In this document: piece by piece, positions 3,062 through 44,594 of the stretch | How positions within the stretch are numbered: position 1 is the stretch's first letter | Layout: every line of letters begins with the position of its first letter | NCBI RefSeq assembly: GCF_015351025.1 | Contig: NZ_JADKRV010000001.1 | Coordinates: 248,001 to 312,000 of the forward strand | Source of the DNA: Curtobacterium sp. VKM Ac-1376 | GTDB lineage: Bacteria > Actinomycetota > Actinomycetes > Actinomycetales > Microbacteriaceae | Length of the DNA stretch: 64,000 bases | Direction: 5' to 3' | Notes under the pieces: model-generated | What the model saw: the letters and a program-made list of their open reading frames with translations, nothing else | Database searches by the model: none | What the model was told of the DNA's origin: nothing | Program-made: the position numbers and the translations under genes

Positions 3062-3592
3062 TCAGCGGGTGAGCCAGCCCGTCAGGGACGCCAGGTGCGC
3101 GGCGACCTGGGCGGGGGCCCGGTCGTCGGTGTCCACCCGGGTGACCGCGTCCGTGGTGGCCGAGTCGAGCCTCCCGGCCGTCCGTGTGCTGTGCGCGAGC
3201 TGCGCCTGCGGGACGGCGCCACCCGCCCGCCGGGCCAGCCGCTCGGCGGTGGTGCCGTCCGTGGCGCGGAGCAGGACGGCGGAGACCAGTGGGCGGTCGC
3301 CCATCGCAGCCGCCAGACGCTCGTGTTCCAGTACGGACACGGTGTTCGTGAAGACCAAGCGGTGGTGTCCGAGCTCCCGGTAGGCGCTCCACATCGCGGC
3401 GAGGTTCCGCTCGGCCAGGCGCGCCTCAGGGTGTTCGAGGTGTGGGGCGGGGTGGGCGAGGTCGAGCAGGTCGCCCTCGATCACCGCGTGCCGGACATCC
3501 GCGGCGACGAGCAGGTCGTGCAGCGCTTCGGCCGCCGTCGACTTGCCCACCCCGGAACGTCCGCCGATGAACAGGACCTCGGACCGCGGCAC
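3062..3592 (-). CDS. P-loop nucleoside/nucleotide kinase-like ATPase
   Basis: A small ATPase of 176 residues with a P-loop (GRSGVGKST) at residues 11-19, a DXX-type segment after the second strand (EGDLLDLAHP) and a lid-like arginine-rich region (AERLARRAGG). This pattern fits adenylylate/gluconate-kinase-like P-loop kinases or AAA_33 proteins; the substrate cannot be read from sequence. It begins with GTG one base after the stop codon of the upstream epimerase gene, so the two are translationally coupled in one operon. Similar small ATPases often accompany unrelated metabolic genes in actinobacteria. Confidence 0.75.
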   Translation of the reverse strand: MPRSEVLFIGGRSGVGKSTAAEALHDLLVAADVRHAVIEGDLLDLAHPAPHLEHPEARLAERNLAAMWSAYRELGHHRLVFTNTVSVLEHERLAAAMGDRPLVSAVLLRATDGTTAERLARRAGGAVPQAQLAHSTRTAGRLDSATTDAVTRVDTDDRAPAQVAAHLASLTGWLTR

Positions 3593-3593
3593 G

Positions 3594-4661
3594 TCAGCCC
3601 AAACCGAGGGAGAGGAGTGCGAGTGCCGCGTCCTCGGGGCCGTAGTCGAACATGCGGTCCCAGAACGGGTCGTCGGCCCATGGGACGTCGCCGTCGGCAG
3701 GCACGGCGTGGGCGGTCTCGACCAGCCAGTCGAGTTCCGGCGTGACGGCGGTCACGAACTCCGGCGGCTGCCACCCGAGTGCCCGGGCCGCGGTGGTGTC
3801 GAGCACGAAGGGCGACGGCGACGACCAGGGCGTGCCGCCGACGAAGGCTGGGGCGTCCTCGTCGAGCAGGACCTCATCGAACCGGTGGTCCAGGTGCGCG
3901 CCGATCGCCCGGACGATCTCGAGCACGGTCGGGGCAGAGGCGTCCGCGACGTTGAGGATCCGTCGGTCGGGGGAGTCCGCGACCAGGCGCACGAGCGATC
4001 CGATGCCGCTCGCCGCGGTCGTGTGGTCGACGCCGCGGCCGTGGTCGGCGAGGAGCACACGCTCCCGGCCGTCGAGCACGCGCCGGACGACGAACCACTC
4101 GCGGGGGCGCCCGATGCCGACGCCGTACACCTTCGACGGGCGGAGCACGGTGACCGGGGCGCCGTGGTCGAGGAGGACCTGCTCGGCGGCGACCTTCGCG
4201 GCACCGTAGCCGTCGCGGCTCGTCGGGTCACCGTCGCCAGCGGTCACCGTCGGCTGGGTCTCGGTGACCGCGCCACCGAACACCGGCTTGTCGAGCGAGT
4301 TCGCGTGCCGGCCCTGCTCGTCGGTGTAGACCGCCTTGGACGACACGAACACGGTCGAGCCGACGTCGTCGAGGAACGGCAGGAGCTGCTGGGCGTCGTC
4401 CCGGGTCACGCCGACGGTGTCGACGAGCAGGTCGGCGCCGGGGCGGAGCAGGTCGCGCAGGACGGTGCGGTCGCGTCGGTCGCCAGCCAGGAAGGTCGCA
4501 CCGGCGGCGGTCAGCGAGTCGGCGACGGGCCCGCCGGTCCGTGCCACCAGGTCGACCTGCCAGTCGTCGCCGCCGCGGCCCGAGGCGTCGAGGAGTTCGC
4601 GAGCGACCGCCGAGCCGATCCCGCCGGTGCCGCCGAGGATGACCGCGCGTCTGGTGCTCAT
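3594..4661 (-). CDS. NAD(P)-dependent epimerase/dehydratase (extended SDR)
   Basis: 355 residues with an N-terminal Rossmann motif GGTGGIG at residues 10-16 and an active-site YGAAK with Tyr152 and Lys156, diagnostic of the extended short-chain dehydrogenase fold used by nucleotide-sugar epimerases and reductases. The substrate is unknown; a serine upstream (VFVSSKAVY) completes the catalytic triad. It leads a two-gene operon with the kinase-like ATPase. The ATG at 4661 lies 6 bases behind TACCGT (4668-4673), a leaderless arrangement. Confidence 0.85.
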   Translation of the reverse strand: MSTRRAVILGGTGGIGSAVARELLDASGRGGDDWQVDLVARTGGPVADSLTAAGATFLAGDRRDRTVLRDLLRPGADLLVDTVGVTRDDAQQLLPFLDDVGSTVFVSSKAVYTDEQGRHANSLDKPVFGGAVTETQPTVTAGDGDPTSRDGYGAAKVAAEQVLLDHGAPVTVLRPSKVYGVGIGRPREWFVVRRVLDGRERVLLADHGRGVDHTTAASGIGSLVRLVADSPDRRILNVADASAPTVLEIVRAIGAHLDHRFDEVLLDEDAPAFVGGTPWSSPSPFVLDTTAARALGWQPPEFVTAVTPELDWLVETAHAVPADGDVPWADDPFWDRMFDYGPEDAALALLSLGLG

Positions 4662-4722
4662 GGTGCAACGGTAGTGCGGTCCGTCGGCCAGCGCGGCCCG
4701 GTCCCCCGGGCAGCGCGGCGCG

Positions 4723-5583
4723 TCAGGAGGCCAGCTGCTCGTGTCGCCACCAGTCGGCCAGCGAGCCGTCGTAGACCTTCACCCGGTCGTGACCGAGCAC
4801 CGTGAGTGCGAGGGCGTCGACGCATGCCGCGCTGCCCACACCGCAGTACGTCACGATCTCGCCGGCACCGATCACCGCGGCGAACGCCCGTTCGAGGTCA
4901 GATCCGCGCAGGTACGCGTTCGTGTCGGGGTTCACCAGGGTGTCCGCCGTGATCGGGGTGCTGCCCGGCACGATGGGTGGGTGGTCGTCGCCGAGGGTGG
5001 CCCAGGGCGCGGCGAACACCAGGGACGCGGGTTCCTCGCCCGTGACGGCGCGCAGGACGCGGTCGTGGTCGGCCCACAGCGCGCGCTCTTCGCCGGCCAG
5101 GAACGCACCGGCGCCGGGGTCGGACGGGGCAGCGGGCGTGCGGAGTGCGCCGACACGGACCGGCCGCCCCTCGTCGCGCCACTTCGTGAAGCCGCCGTCG
5201 AGCACCGCGACCGAGTCGAAGCCGAACGAGCGGAAGATCCACCACAGGCGTGCCGACCACTCGCCGACACTGTCGTCGTAGACCACCACGGTCGAGGTGT
5301 TCGTCACCCCGAGCTCGGCGGCGGCGGCTTCGAAGCGTTCGGCGCCGGGACGGGTGAACGGGACGTGGGACCCGGGCTCGGAGAAAGCCGTGATCAGGTC
5401 CGCGTAACGGGCGCCGGGGACGTGCCCGTGCTGTTCGTAGGCGTCCTGCGCGGCGTGCCAGGTCGTCTGGAGACCGGTCCCCGCCGTGTGCACCGAGGCG
5501 TCGAGGACGACGAGCTCGTCAGCACCGAGGTGGTCTGCGAGCCACTGCGTCGACACGAGCGGCGAGGTCAGGACGGGGGCCAT
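4723..5583 (-). CDS. Thiosulfate/3-mercaptopyruvate sulfurtransferase (two rhodanese domains)
   Basis: A tandem rhodanese of 286 residues. The N-terminal domain is inactive-type; the C-terminal domain holds the catalytic Cys247 in the loop CGVGSAA. Members move sulfane sulfur from thiosulfate or 3-mercaptopyruvate to cyanide or thiols; the loop here (CGVGS rather than CRXGX[R/T] or CGSGVTA) leaves the donor uncertain. The frame is open for another 220 codons upstream, but the upstream part is low-complexity spacer. The ATG at 5583 stands 7 bases behind TATGGT (5591-5596), which argues for this start; an ATG at 5595 is the alternative. Confidence 0.88.
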   Translation of the reverse strand: MAPVLTSPLVSTQWLADHLGADELVVLDASVHTAGTGLQTTWHAAQDAYEQHGHVPGARYADLITAFSEPGSHVPFTRPGAERFEAAAAELGVTNTSTVVVYDDSVGEWSARLWWIFRSFGFDSVAVLDGGFTKWRDEGRPVRVGALRTPAAPSDPGAGAFLAGEERALWADHDRVLRAVTGEEPASLVFAAPWATLGDDHPPIVPGSTPITADTLVNPDTNAYLRGSDLERAFAAVIGAGEIVTYCGVGSAACVDALALTVLGHDRVKVYDGSLADWWRHEQLAS

Positions 5584-41370: not shown

Positions 41371-41378
41371 ACACGTGT
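41371..41378. promoter_or_regulatory. ACACGTGT operator candidate before lacI-type gene
   Basis: A perfect 8-base palindrome ACACGTGT in the 77-base gap upstream of the LacI-type gene, with its last base touching the oxidoreductase stop codon. The same ACACGTG core is present twice upstream of the oxidoreductase, which points to one regulator for both. Confidence 0.5.
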
Positions 41379-42640
41379 TACTCGGACGCGATCGTAGCCG
41401 ACGGTGCAGCGCAGGCCGACGCTGCAGCGCCCGCCGCCGCGTTCGCCGTCTCGGGGGCGTCGCCGAAGTCCGGCACCTCGAGGCGGGCGCCGCCCTGCAG
41501 AGCCGACTGGTGGGCGATGATGCCGGGCAGGGTGAAGCGGGCGGCGGTCCAGGCGTTCACGGGCGGCAGGGTCCGGTCGACGACGGCGCGGACGAAGTCG
41601 TCGGCGAGGAACTGGTGGCTGCCCTCGTGGCCGGTCGGCACCCCGTCGTACTCGGACGGCAGGCGGTCGGTGTCGTGGACCTCGGCGTAGCCGGACACGA
41701 ACGCCTCGCGAAGGGACGGGTCGACGTCTGCCAGGCGCGGGTCGTCGAGCGACATCGTCGCCTGCGTGTTGATCTTGTCGCTGATGTCGTGCGAGTCCTC
41801 CTTGTCCTGCCAGACGCTGGTCTTCGCGAGCTGCTCGAAGCTGGCCTCGGTGCCGAAGTAGCGGAACCGTGACTCGCGGATGTGCGACGGGTAGCCGACG
41901 CGACGCATCTCGTTGATGCGCATGACGCCGCCGTTGTCGAGCTCGAACAGGGCGGTGGCGTTCGAGAAGTCGTTGTCGAACTGGCTGAGGTCCTTGTCGA
42001 AGACGCCGTCACCGCGGTCGTCCTTCACGCCGATGCAGCTGACGCTGACCGCGTGCCCGGGGATCGCGCCGAGGACCCCGCCGACCGAGTGCGTCGGGTA
42101 GAGCATGGGCGGGTAGCTGGCGGTGCGCTTCCAGTCGTCACCACCGCTGTACTGGTACGCGGCGTAGAAGCCGAGGTCCATGTCGTGCACGTAGTCGCCC
42201 TCGGAGTAGAACACCCGGCCGAAGGCCCCGTCGGCGACCTGCTTGCGGGCGAACACCGTGGCGGGGTTGTAGTAGCTCGTCTCGCCCATCATGTAGGTGA
42301 GCCCGGTCTCGCCGACGGCCTGGATGATGTCGCGGATCTCGTCGACGGAGATCGCCATCGGGACGGCGGAGTAGACGTGCTTGCCGGCGCGCAGGGCCTT
42401 GACCACGAGCGGGCCGTGGGTCCAGCGCTGCGTGAAGATCGCGACGGCGTCGACGTCCGAGGCGAGCACCGCGTCGAAGTCGGGGAACGTGCCGTCGAGG
42501 TGCTGCGTCTCGACGAGTTCGGACGCGCGCTCGTCGACGAGGTCCGTGACGTAGACGCGGTCGACGTCGGGGTGGAGCTTGAACAGCTTGGCGAACTGGG
42601 GGGCGAACTGGCCCGCGCCGACCATGCCGACAGAGATCAT
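41378..42640 (-). CDS. Gfo/Idh/MocA family oxidoreductase
   Basis: 420 residues. The N-terminal Rossmann domain (VGMVGAGQFAPQFAKLF) and the AGKHVYSAVPM segment, where the usual EKP catalytic lysine motif is replaced by SAVPM, mark this as an atypical member. The C-terminal domain has FYSEGDYVHD and THSVGGVLG. Substrate is unknown; sugar or inositol oxidation is typical. Loss of the EKP lysine suggests a changed chemistry. The frame is open far upstream, but the ATG at 42640 has AAAGG 8 bases before it and matches the family N-terminus. Confidence 0.87.
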   Translation of the reverse strand: MISVGMVGAGQFAPQFAKLFKLHPDVDRVYVTDLVDERASELVETQHLDGTFPDFDAVLASDVDAVAIFTQRWTHGPLVVKALRAGKHVYSAVPMAISVDEIRDIIQAVGETGLTYMMGETSYYNPATVFARKQVADGAFGRVFYSEGDYVHDMDLGFYAAYQYSGGDDWKRTASYPPMLYPTHSVGGVLGAIPGHAVSVSCIGVKDDRGDGVFDKDLSQFDNDFSNATALFELDNGGVMRINEMRRVGYPSHIRESRFRYFGTEASFEQLAKTSVWQDKEDSHDISDKINTQATMSLDDPRLADVDPSLREAFVSGYAEVHDTDRLPSEYDGVPTGHEGSHQFLADDFVRAVVDRTLPPVNAWTAARFTLPGIIAHQSALQGGARLEVPDFGDAPETANAAAGAAASACAAPSATIASE

Positions 42641-42719
42641 CAGTGACCTTTCCAGGGTGTGGGATGCGTCGCCGAGCGGGTCGCTCCGATGCGATCGAGG
42701 GCCATCCTGACACACCTCG

Positions 42720-42788
42720 TCTACACGTGACAACCGCTGGTGATACCGGCTGCTTCGGTCGGCGTTGCAACGACTCCCCACGTGTAGA
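42720..42788. promoter_or_regulatory. Paired CACGTG operators upstream of Idh/MocA gene
   Basis: TCTACACGTG at 42720-42729 and its exact inverse complement CACGTGTAGA at 42779-42788 stand 49 bases apart. Matching cores plus the ACACGTGT by the lacI-type gene suggest DNA looping by a tetrameric LacI protein. They lie 80-150 bases upstream of the start codon. Confidence 0.55.
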
Positions 42789-42859
42789 TCCACACGATCC
42801 TCCGGGAGCGGTGCGATGAGCTGTCTCGACACTGACCGGTGCGCTGTGCGGACGACGCG

Positions 42860-42889
42860 TTGACCCCTCCGAGGACCGCGAACCAGACT
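42860..42889 (+). promoter_or_regulatory. Promoter of BLUF gene 1
   Basis: TTGACC (42860-42865) and CAGACT (42884-42889) with an 18-base spacer, the latter 7 bases from the ATG at 42897. The TetR gene downstream has an identical CAGACT box. Confidence 0.6.
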
Positions 42890-42896
42890 GCAACGG

Positions 42897-43367
42897 ATGA
42901 CTTCCCTCACCTCACTCGTCTACATGTCGGTCGCGGTCGACGACCTGACCGATGACCAGCTGGTCGCGATGCTGCGCGAGGCTCGGCTCCGCAACGACGC
43001 CCTCGGCGTCTCCGGACTCCTGCTCGCCAAGGGCGGCCGCTTCATGCAGGTGCTCGAAGGCCCGTCCTGGAGCGTCGAGGACCGTTTCGCCGCCATCGAG
43101 CGCGACCCGCGCCACACCGACGTGAAGTCGCTGTCACGCGAGTCCATCGCCGCGCGTCGCTTCGACGGTTGGGCCATGGCGTTCGGCAACCCGACCGCCG
43201 ACGAGATCCGCGACGAGCCGGGCTTCAGCACGTTCCTCAGCGACCGCAGTGGTCTGCCGACCGGGCTGGCGGGCACGCCCGCCGAGTGGCTCCTCCACTG
43301 GTTCCGCGGGCGCGATCTGCGCGATCTGCCGGAGGAGCGGATCTCGCTCGGCCGACACGCGGCCTGA
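42897..43367 (+). CDS. Short BLUF-domain blue-light photoreceptor, paralogue 1
   Basis: 156 residues with a BLUF domain at 1-98. Every key residue is at the AppA spacing: Tyr9, Asn33, Gln51, Trp92 and Met94 correspond to AppA Tyr21, Asn45, Gln63, Trp104 and Met106. BLUF proteins bind FAD, and blue light rearranges the Tyr-Gln hydrogen bonds. There is no effector domain; residues 100-156 form a short tail (AEWLLHWFRGRDLRDLPEER), as in PixD-type receptors that signal through a partner. The next gene is a TetR regulator, and a second BLUF paralogue lies beyond. Confidence 0.92.
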   Translation: MTSLTSLVYMSVAVDDLTDDQLVAMLREARLRNDALGVSGLLLAKGGRFMQVLEGPSWSVEDRFAAIERDPRHTDVKSLSRESIAARRFDGWAMAFGNPTADEIRDEPGFSTFLSDRSGLPTGLAGTPAEWLLHWFRGRDLRDLPEERISLGRHAA

Positions 43368-43385
43368 AACCGCGCACCCCTCGGA

Positions 43386-43421
43386 CTGGAGGAGCGGCGC
43401 GGACCCGCCCCGCGCCTCCAG
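43386..43421. repeat. GGAGG hairpin family copy between BLUF1 and TetR
   Basis: CTGGAGGAGCGGCGCGG and CCCCGCGCCTCCAG form an imperfect stem 19 bases behind the BLUF1 stop. It may end BLUF1 transcription, with TetR starting from its own CAGACT box at 43427-43432. Confidence 0.6.
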
Positions 43422-43438
43422 GCCGACAGACTGGACCC

Positions 43439-44047
43439 GTGGAGCGACGTGAGCAGATCCTGGTGGCCGCGGCCGAGGAGTTCGACCGCGTCGGCTTCGC
43501 CGGCGCGACCATCGCGGGCATCGCCCGCACCGCTGGCGTCTCGCAGGGCACCCTGCACTTCTACTTCCCGACGAAACTCGCCCTGGCGCTCGGCGTCATC
43601 GTCGAGCAGAACGCACGCACCTTCGACGTCGTCAGCCACACCGACAGTTCGCCCGTCGCGGCGCTCATCGGGGCGTCCCGCGGCATCGCTGCGCTCCTGC
43701 GGACCGACCCGATCGTGCGGGCGGGGATCCGGCTGTCGCTCGAGCGCGGCGAGTTCCAGGCCGCGACGCTGAGCTTCTACGAGCAGTGGATCGGCGGCAT
43801 CGTCGACGTGTTCCGCCTGTCCGTCGCGAGCGGCGAGCTCCGCACCGACCTGACGGCGGAGCAGCTCGGCTCGACGGTGGTGCCGTACTTCACGGGAGTG
43901 CAGCTCGTGTCCGACGTCCGGACCCGGCGCTCCGACCTGTTCGCGGGGGCGGCGACGATGTGGCGCGTGGTGATCGCGGCGACGGCGGACCCGAGGCACC
44001 GTGACCGGCTGCTCGGCGTGGTGGAGGACACCTTCGGGGCCGCCTGA
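43439..44047 (+). CDS. TetR/ScbR-like regulator within the BLUF cluster
   Basis: 202 residues. The N-terminal TetR HTH (ATIAGIARTAGVSQGTLHFYFPTK) has the LHFYF form seen in gamma-butyrolactone-receptor-like regulators (ScbR/ArpA), and the C-terminal domain is hydrophobic and helical. It lies between two BLUF photoreceptors and could couple light reception to gene expression (inference). GTG at 43439 is 6 bases behind CAGACT (43427-43432). BLUF2 converges on it with 56 bases between stops. Confidence 0.88.
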   Translation: MERREQILVAAAEEFDRVGFAGATIAGIARTAGVSQGTLHFYFPTKLALALGVIVEQNARTFDVVSHTDSSPVAALIGASRGIAALLRTDPIVRAGIRLSLERGEFQAATLSFYEQWIGGIVDVFRLSVASGELRTDLTAEQLGSTVVPYFTGVQLVSDVRTRRSDLFAGAATMWRVVIAATADPRHRDRLLGVVEDTFGAA

Positions 44048-44103
44048 CCGCGGCTCGTGCTCGGTGCGTGCGCACCGCACCACACCGCGCACGAGCGATC
44101 ACG

Positions 44104-44532
44104 TCAGACGTCGTGGAGCTCGCGGTCGCGGAACCACTTCAGCAGCCACGCGGCGCTCGTCCGGTCGAACGAGCGTGGGAAGTCCATCGTTCCGGAGAGG
44201 AACGGGCTGAAGCCCTCCTCGGCCCGGACATCGGCGTCGTCGAGCGCGCGGTGTGCCATCGACCAGCCGTCGAAGCGTCGGCGCTCGATGTCCTCGCGGA
44301 TGAGCGACTTCACCTCGGTGTGTCGGCGGTCCTTCGCGATCACGGCGAACCGGTCGTCCACGCTCCACGCCGGACCCTCGAGCAGCTGCATGAAGCGACC
44401 GCCCTTGGCGAGCAGGAGGCCGGAGACCCCGAGCGCCTCGTTGCGCAGCCGGGACTCGGCGAGCAGCACCGCGAGGGCGTCGTCGTCGAAGGGGACGACG
44501 GCGCGACTCATGTAGACGATCGAGACGAGCAC
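44104..44532 (-). CDS. Short BLUF-domain blue-light photoreceptor, paralogue 2
   Basis: 142 residues. All BLUF photochemistry residues are kept at exact spacing: Tyr7, Asn31, Gln49, Trp90 and Met92. It is clearly a duplicate of BLUF1, nearly identical across GVSGLLLAKGGRFMQ and RRFDGW, but with a different tail. Unlike most neighbours it has a real Shine-Dalgarno (AGGAGG, 8 bases before GTG 44532), so its expression is probably tuned differently. It is on the opposite strand to BLUF1 and the TetR. Confidence 0.92.
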   Translation of the reverse strand: MLVSIVYMSRAVVPFDDDALAVLLAESRLRNEALGVSGLLLAKGGRFMQLLEGPAWSVDDRFAVIAKDRRHTEVKSLIREDIERRRFDGWSMAHRALDDADVRAEEGFSPFLSGTMDFPRSFDRTSAAWLLKWFRDRELHDV

Positions 44533-44594
44533 GGGTCCATCCTCCTGCCACGAGCCGGATTGCGCGATGTGGATGTCCGCAACGCGACTCCCTG

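Follow-up and report, generated by a model that had tools for sequence, protein, structure and literature searches.

The window analysed here is a 64,000-nucleotide stretch of the 3.77 Mb genome of Curtobacterium sp. VKM Ac-1376 (contig C1, positions 248001-312000), which contains two genes for short BLUF photoreceptors, BLUF1 and BLUF2, and between them that of a TetR-family regulator (referred to here as TetR). BLUF2 and TetR form a pair that is kept through most of the genus: in every genome that has both (53/53), they lie on one contig, convergent and less than 2 kb apart. That a BLUF gene is retained in this way beside one repressor gene would be most simply explained by contact of the type described for BlsA and BluF. 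We give about an even chance to the view that the locus serves as a module for light input, built around a TetR of the hormone-receptor type, in which the short BLUFs would modulate the adjacent regulator by contact.

The three genes were recognized in an original prediction made from the DNA letters of the window, and all of them were confirmed at their coordinates. BLUF1 (156 aa) occupies positions 42897-43367 on the forward strand, TetR (202 aa, butyrolactone/avenolide receptor branch) follows at 43439-44047 on the same strand, and BLUF2 (142 aa) is found at 44104-44532 on the reverse strand. The two BLUF genes do flank TetR, one on each side, but their orientations differ, with BLUF1 co-directional and BLUF2 convergent with the regulator.

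Orthologues were collected from 60 genomes of the genus using minimum identities of at least 60% for TetR (pieces included) and at least 72% for both BLUF2 and BLUF1. These cut-offs were chosen by us at gaps in the identity lists, the next matches being at 55% (TetR), 64% (BLUF2), and 61% (BLUF1). TetR and BLUF2 are each present in 55 genomes (both in 53) and BLUF1 in 37. The gap between TetR and BLUF2 is less than 200 bp in 28 of the 53 genomes and 0.37-1.96 kb in the other 25, and in the loci examined it can hold a luciferase-domain protein or an acetyltransferase. BLUF1 is located no more than 7 kb upstream of TetR and co-directional with it in 24 of the 55 TetR genomes (no more than 250 bp in 17), and TetR is present in every genome with BLUF1, albeit in pieces in G025 and G009. 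Three genomes (G063, G073, and G074) have neither TetR nor BLUF2, and BLUF2 is absent from G025, which is 65% complete. The neighbourhood conservation on which the original prediction depended is thus found for the BLUF2-TetR pair, but the complete layout of three genes is less widespread; the observation is better supported than could have been known from the window for BLUF2 and TetR, and less so for BLUF1. As a separate observation, the TetR orthologue is split into two frames or pieces at L051 (G009) and at G025:C1:3619228-3619828.

The pairing was also examined without bias towards BLUF by retrieving 33 close-relative loci using TetR alone. These TetR relatives (at least 60% identity) belong to Curtobacterium in 31 cases and to organisms named 'Microbacteriaceae bacterium' in two. 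BLUF2 is found within 4 kb in 31 of the 33 loci, followed by PGAM (23), PGAM's neighbour (21), an MFS protein (13), an ABC transporter (12), BLUF1 (12), and an AI-2E protein (5). The two loci that lack BLUF2 are L202 (C. pusillum ATCC 19096) and L222, where the contig ends.

Across the family, BLUF was detected in 59 of 249 genomes and 22 of 85 genera. All 78 BLUF places in other genera were retrieved; seven in which the gene caller found no BLUF were dropped, leaving 71 loci for analysis. Only one of the 139 genes adjoining BLUF in these loci is a TetR, and this match is weak (3e-3), so BLUF beside TetR was rejected as a general Microbacteriaceae layout; TetR accounts for 12 of all 542 genes in the same loci. 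Distant TetR relatives from other genera (27-40% identity) gave no BLUF match in 37 loci, and the closest other-genera relatives (about 200-213 bits, in g71 and g64, among the best 12 candidates per genome) are not near the BLUFs of their own genomes. Among the sampled genomes, the BLUF-TetR layout is so far confined to Curtobacterium. A different fusion was noted in another genus of the Microbacteriaceae, where in two genomes a glyoxalase-like domain (PF18029) is joined ahead of BLUF (PF04940; L145:3872-4867 and L152:3443-4420).

Both BLUF proteins of the window exceed the PF04940 gathering score of 25 (93.6 bits and 7.9e-27 for BLUF1, 91.3 bits and 4.3e-26 for BLUF2). Each has this single Pfam domain, in agreement with the claim that neither carries an effector domain, and both are short BLUFs without a covalent effector. 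The Tyr, Asn, Gln, Trp, and Met residues are indeed arranged at the AppA spacing (0/24/42/83/85) in both proteins (Y9, N33, Q51, W92, and M94 in BLUF1). These five photocycle residues are invariant in 22/22 distinct BLUF1 and 34/34 distinct BLUF2 sequences (56/56 in total, window copies included), and both proteins would be expected to bind flavin adenine dinucleotide (FAD) and to switch in blue light. An AlphaFold2 model of BLUF1 matches the folds of AppA, PixD, and BlrB and is confident in the BLUF core only, with a predicted local distance difference test (pLDDT) score of 71.8 overall and 28-69 from about residue 91. A conserved LLxWFR segment is present in the BLUF C-terminal region.

BLUF1 and BLUF2 share 60% identity over 141 aa, as befits the duplicates that they were predicted to be. 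In a subsampled tree (8 BLUF1 and 12 BLUF2 sequences [every third row], 8 of the fusions described below, 30 other BLUFs of the genus, and 71 BLUFs of other genera) they form a single group with a support of 1.0, because of which they look like the products of a duplication inside the genus. The suggestion that they have different tails was not upheld: the alignment extends through the C-terminal region, beyond which BLUF1 has just 12 additional residues. The source genome contains six BLUF domains, and up to seven occur per genome of the genus. A third group of short BLUFs is accompanied by a CCCCGTTCTGGGG block about 65-80 nt upstream in L005, L036, L037, L039, L041, and L042; of the seven rows shown from L005 and L036-L042, six have the block and L040 does not.

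The six BLUF domains of the source genome include three that are part of 350-aa fusion proteins with BLUF at the N-terminus and TetR at the C-terminus (L001:544-1596 on C36, L002:724-1776 on C59, and L003:1498-2550 on C24). In the C36 fusion, the match to BLUF is 5.1e-27 and that to TetR_C_6 is 3.5e-8, with TetR_N under the cut-off (0.007). Near-full-length fusions (at least 330 of the 350 positions) are found in 40 of the 60 genus genomes; when the 249 genomes of the family, including 244 from other genera, were searched at an E-value of 1e-30 among the best 8 candidates per genome, full-length matches were limited to the genus (G000 and G060). The fused TetR domain is TetR_C_6-like and belongs to a branch other than that of the hormone-receptor-type TetR in the window. 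The photoactive Gln is replaced by Gly in all 40 of the fusion sequences read (from 57 fusion rows), and 10 of these, comprising one sub-group, also have Phe in place of Tyr; Gln is present in 121/121 of the non-fused BLUFs in the tree set. Because the TetR branch differs and the Gln is lost, the fusion is weakened as a Rosetta-stone proof that BLUF and TetR bind one another.

A protein of this type has been listed previously: WP_058726129.1, a 335-aa BLUF+AcrR protein of Curtobacterium luteum, appears in a domain-architecture table (PMC8508746 Table 4, credited to Kaushik et al. 2019). From its table entry, it resembles the window pair in combining BLUF with a TetR/AcrR protein in Curtobacterium, but it is a single chain and its TetR is of the other branch. 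The fusion in G004 (L262), in which Tyr is replaced by Phe and Gln by Gly, was likened to it by its length of 335 aa. Some fusion genes adjoin another TetR of the fused branch (L263:563-2199, L265:1-1547, L271, and L274). In G074 (L281:3279-5240) and G073 (L283, about 3347-5179), neither of which yielded a full-length fusion, a stand-alone BLUF that retains Gln and a stand-alone TetR of the fused branch are located about 0.85 kb apart. This arrangement may be an unfused stage; similar paralogues are common, so it was not counted as evidence.

Control of a repressor by a BLUF protein is known from the BlsA system of Acinetobacter baumannii and the BluF-BluR system of Escherichia coli, the latter with a MerR-type repressor, unlike the TetR here. 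The short BLUF protein BlsA binds Fur and AcoN (PMC8508746), and its yeast two-hybrid interaction with AcoN, which is annotated as a sigma-54-dependent Fis-family regulator, occurs under blue light only (PMC6595428). The proposed module resembles this system in that the action of a short stand-alone BLUF on a repressor depends on direct contact governed by light, which for the window pair we infer. It differs in the type of partner (a Fis-family protein and Fur, as opposed to TetR) and in having two BLUFs where the excerpts of these sources describe one; nor do those excerpts describe the BlsA partners as gene neighbours, unlike BLUF2 and TetR. YcgF/BluF releases the repressor YcgE, the gene for which tends to adjoin that of BluF (PMC8508746), much as BLUF2 adjoins TetR, the presumed target, in the genomes with both. 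According to the same source, BluF carries an EAL domain, whereas the BLUFs in the window are short and are accompanied by a TetR.

Should the contact reading be correct, blue light would switch FAD-bound BLUF1 and BLUF2, the BLUF C-terminal region with its LLxWFR segment would alter contact with the TetR dimer, and this change would shift the hold of TetR on DNA, as for BlsA-AcoN and BluF-BluR. BLUF2 would be the standing partner of TetR, and BLUF1 a duplicate located beside it in part of the genus, perhaps with another sensitivity or lifetime. The lack of an output domain in both window BLUFs was counted in favour of contact. Weak support comes from the distances of TetR and BLUF2, which correlate beyond those of two nearby genes (partial r 0.67 for 210 non-independent pairs, with no significance claimed).

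Several observations weigh against this reading. G021 encodes a TetR at 78% identity and no BLUF anywhere in its genome, while G002 and G067 have BLUF2 without a TetR orthologue; because of these exceptions, the linkage of BLUF2 and TetR is strong but not obligate. BLUF1 is distant from TetR in 6 of its 37 genomes and on another contig in 7, perhaps partly as a result of assembly breaks. PGAM and its neighbour also stay close to TetR (23/33 and 21/33 loci), and synteny within the genus could produce such closeness without function. In 10 of the 71 loci from other genera, a TetR lies within three genes of BLUF, indicating that loose proximity is common by chance. The fusions add only loose support for a BLUF-TetR link in the window, since their TetR comes from another branch and their BLUF has lost its Gln.

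The regions upstream of the three genes were right-aligned at the start codon (24 for BLUF1, 33 for TetR, and 47 for BLUF2). A consensus box is located 6-7 nt before the start, reading A-x-A-C-T-G for BLUF1 and TetR and A-x-G-A-T-G for BLUF2; as this leaves no space for an untranslated leader, leaderless transcripts are probable for each of the three. In the window, the BLUF1 promoter is composed of TTGACC (42860-42865), an 18 nt spacer, and CAGACT (42884-42889) on the forward strand, 7 nt 5' of the ATG, making the leaderless start proposed for this gene probable. CAGACT also forms the -10-like box of TetR (43427-43432, forward strand), 6 nt 5' of a GTG start codon and matching the A-x-A-C-T consensus at -11 to -7. 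The sharing of this box by BLUF1 and TetR, as predicted, extends to the orthologues of both, and among the 59 called genes of the window only these two have [ACG]A[CG]ACT at the box position. The strong Shine-Dalgarno (SD) sequence assigned to BLUF2 is better described as a -10-like box: the orthologue consensus is AnGATG at -11 to -6 (CAGGAT, GAAGAT, CAGTAT, etc.), corresponding in the window to GAGGAT (44539-44544, reverse strand), a part of the supposed SD. As GGAGG is present upstream of BLUF2 in the window, a true SD is possible in this single genome. A regulatory difference between a leaderless BLUF1 and an SD-led BLUF2 was rejected in view of the orthologue upstream regions.

A strong hairpin in the gap between BLUF1 and TetR (43381-43426, forward strand; -33.5 kcal/mol, z -4.14) is a probable terminator, and a hairpin occurs upstream of most TetR orthologues displayed. 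Since it separates the two genes, TetR is probably a transcription unit distinct from BLUF1. The pattern of the hairpin arms recurs 14 times in the window, counting the two arms of this hairpin, against an expectation of 2.07, for which reason the hairpin was set aside as an operator. GCCTCCAG-type hairpin arms occur at 43381-43426 and at 12 other places in the window and are probably the terminator type of the genus. A second hairpin (44053-44096; -32 kcal/mol, z -2.97) is located between the convergent stop codons of TetR and BLUF2 and could be a two-way terminator. In relatives, the BLUF1 -35 is preceded by a long inverted repeat; this was not taken to be the operator either, its left arm being missing in the window.

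One further element, GCGGAC, is found at almost the same position ahead of the two BLUF genes, 49 nt upstream of the BLUF1 start (42848-42853, forward strand) and 48 nt upstream of BLUF2 (44575-44580, reverse strand). At -53 to -46, it is present in 17/24 BLUF1 regions (mononucleotide-shuffle mean 0.22), 21/47 BLUF2 regions (0.26), and 0/33 TetR regions, and it may have been inherited from the common ancestor of BLUF1 and BLUF2. These features bear on an alternative in which the link is transcriptional only, with TetR as a repressor of itself and of the promoter of BLUF1, BLUF2, or both, and the partner of the BLUFs located elsewhere. TetR genes commonly control their neighbours, and this alternative would account for the compact promoters of all three genes, which are of the leaderless type and have similar -10 boxes, for the GCGGAC just upstream of the -35 in both BLUF genes, and for the persistence of BLUF2 without TetR in two genomes. 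However, the absence of GCGGAC from the TetR regions and the placement of the convergent BLUF2 promoter at the gene end far from TetR both argue against it, and, although no systematic search for operator dyads was made, we consider it unlikely.

TetR matches TetR_N (PF00440; 9.5e-13, 48.2 bits, cut-off 24) and TetR_C_45 (PF21935; 3e-6, 28.2 bits, cut-off 27), and its closest solved relatives by sequence are AvaR1 (1.8e-20) and the butyrolactone receptor TylP (1.3e-19). The AlphaFold2 model, based on 63 alignment rows, has the all-helical TetR fold (pLDDT 93.1); in a PDB fold search, ranks 1-33 are occupied by AvaR1, TylP, CprB, and two further 'bacterial hormones' entries. The 'ScbR-like' label of the original prediction was therefore apt with respect to fold, but the protein scores 145.2 bits with the NCBIfam ScbR model (NF041196), below the equivalog cut-off of 150, and for this reason it is classed as a relative of ScbR and not as a family member. 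TetR resembles the Streptomyces butyrolactone or avenolide receptors AvaR1, TylP, and CprB in fold, with 22-31% identity over its whole length, and differs from them in falling under the ScbR cut-off, in having BLUF neighbours, and in that the butyrolactone synthase family AfsA (PF03756) was not found in its genome. AfsA had no match in 58 of the 60 genus genomes, that of VKM Ac-1376 included, or in any of 14 control genomes, making control of TetR by an endogenous butyrolactone unlikely. In the two genus genomes with a match (G065:C25:27161-28580 and G074:C1:1721592-1723229), AfsA adjoins another, ScbR-like TetR paralogue.

Two residues that we take to belong to the ligand pocket, W117 and T152, are identical in 31/31 close rows and are found in 31/31 and 29/31 rows, respectively, from distant genera; the Trp is important for ligand binding in ArpA. 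The conservation of these residues, the occupation of the first 33 structural ranks by hormone-receptor entries, and the retention of TetR in the BLUF-less G021 would all fit a TetR that is an orphan receptor for a diffusible butyrolactone or butenolide of foreign bacteria, with the BLUFs as functionally unconnected neighbours held by synteny within the genus. Against this explanation, no neighbour accompanies TetR as steadily as BLUF2 (31/33) where others change, and AfsA was without a match in 58 of the 60 genomes and lies beside a different TetR paralogue in the other two; we regard it as doubtful. The contact reading can itself accommodate a ligand: as the presumed pocket residues are kept despite the lack of a synthase in these 58 genomes, TetR may read a diffusible ligand as well as light. 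It is very improbable that both BLUFs act on some other common target, such as a cyclic di-GMP enzyme as thought possible for BlrB, with TetR in their regulon: the partners of short BLUFs are varied in the systems reviewed (PMC8508746) and BLUF domains are numerous in the genus, but among the proteins searched for in the 33 close-relative loci, none has so constant a link to TetR as that of BLUF2.

More tentatively, and with the chances somewhat against it, TetR control may have acquired light input on two occasions in Curtobacterium, in one case as a synthase-less TetR partnered by short BLUFs and in the other as a separate BLUF-TetR fusion that later lost its Gln. The hormone-receptor-type TetR, whose genome encodes no detected synthase, would then be the output of the duplicated BLUFs, forming a two-receptor and possibly ligand-plus-light switch. 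Instead of light, the blind fusion might respond to flavin, redox, or protein partners, or it might form mixed dimers that put it in competition with the sighted BLUFs.

An anti-phage role was also considered for the three genes and dropped, as PADLOC gave no match at 0.001 for the BLUF1, TetR, or BLUF2 proteins. Upstream of BLUF1, the window (41378-42896) lacks the ABC sugar transporter operon found in many relatives between a MocA-type oxidoreductase and BLUF1.

TetR has been placed under blue-light control by engineering in the LOV-TetR switches pLITR, pLATR, and TRU (PMC9614035), which, as described there, are man-made fusions, as opposed to natural BLUFs on separate chains. In an account of the genomic contexts of AnBLUF46, a figure legend names a TetR/AcrR gene among the neighbours, with no functional claim in that legend (PMC9020721). 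Beyond the table entry for WP_058726129.1, no natural BLUF-TetR regulatory pair was found in the full-text literature searched, outside of which most subscription journals lie.

Light control of the TetR described here is plausible and would belong to a class already known, in which a BLUF receptor works together with a repressor. Curtobacterium is frequent on leaves and litter, habitats in which light provides a daily signal. If the contact reading is true, this would be the first natural TetR under a separate BLUF receptor, judging by the literature searched; it would join blue-light sensing to the butyrolactone-receptor family and provide a compact two-chain optogenetic repressor. The Gln-less BLUF-TetR fusions of the same genus offer a chance to ask what a BLUF domain does after losing light sensing.

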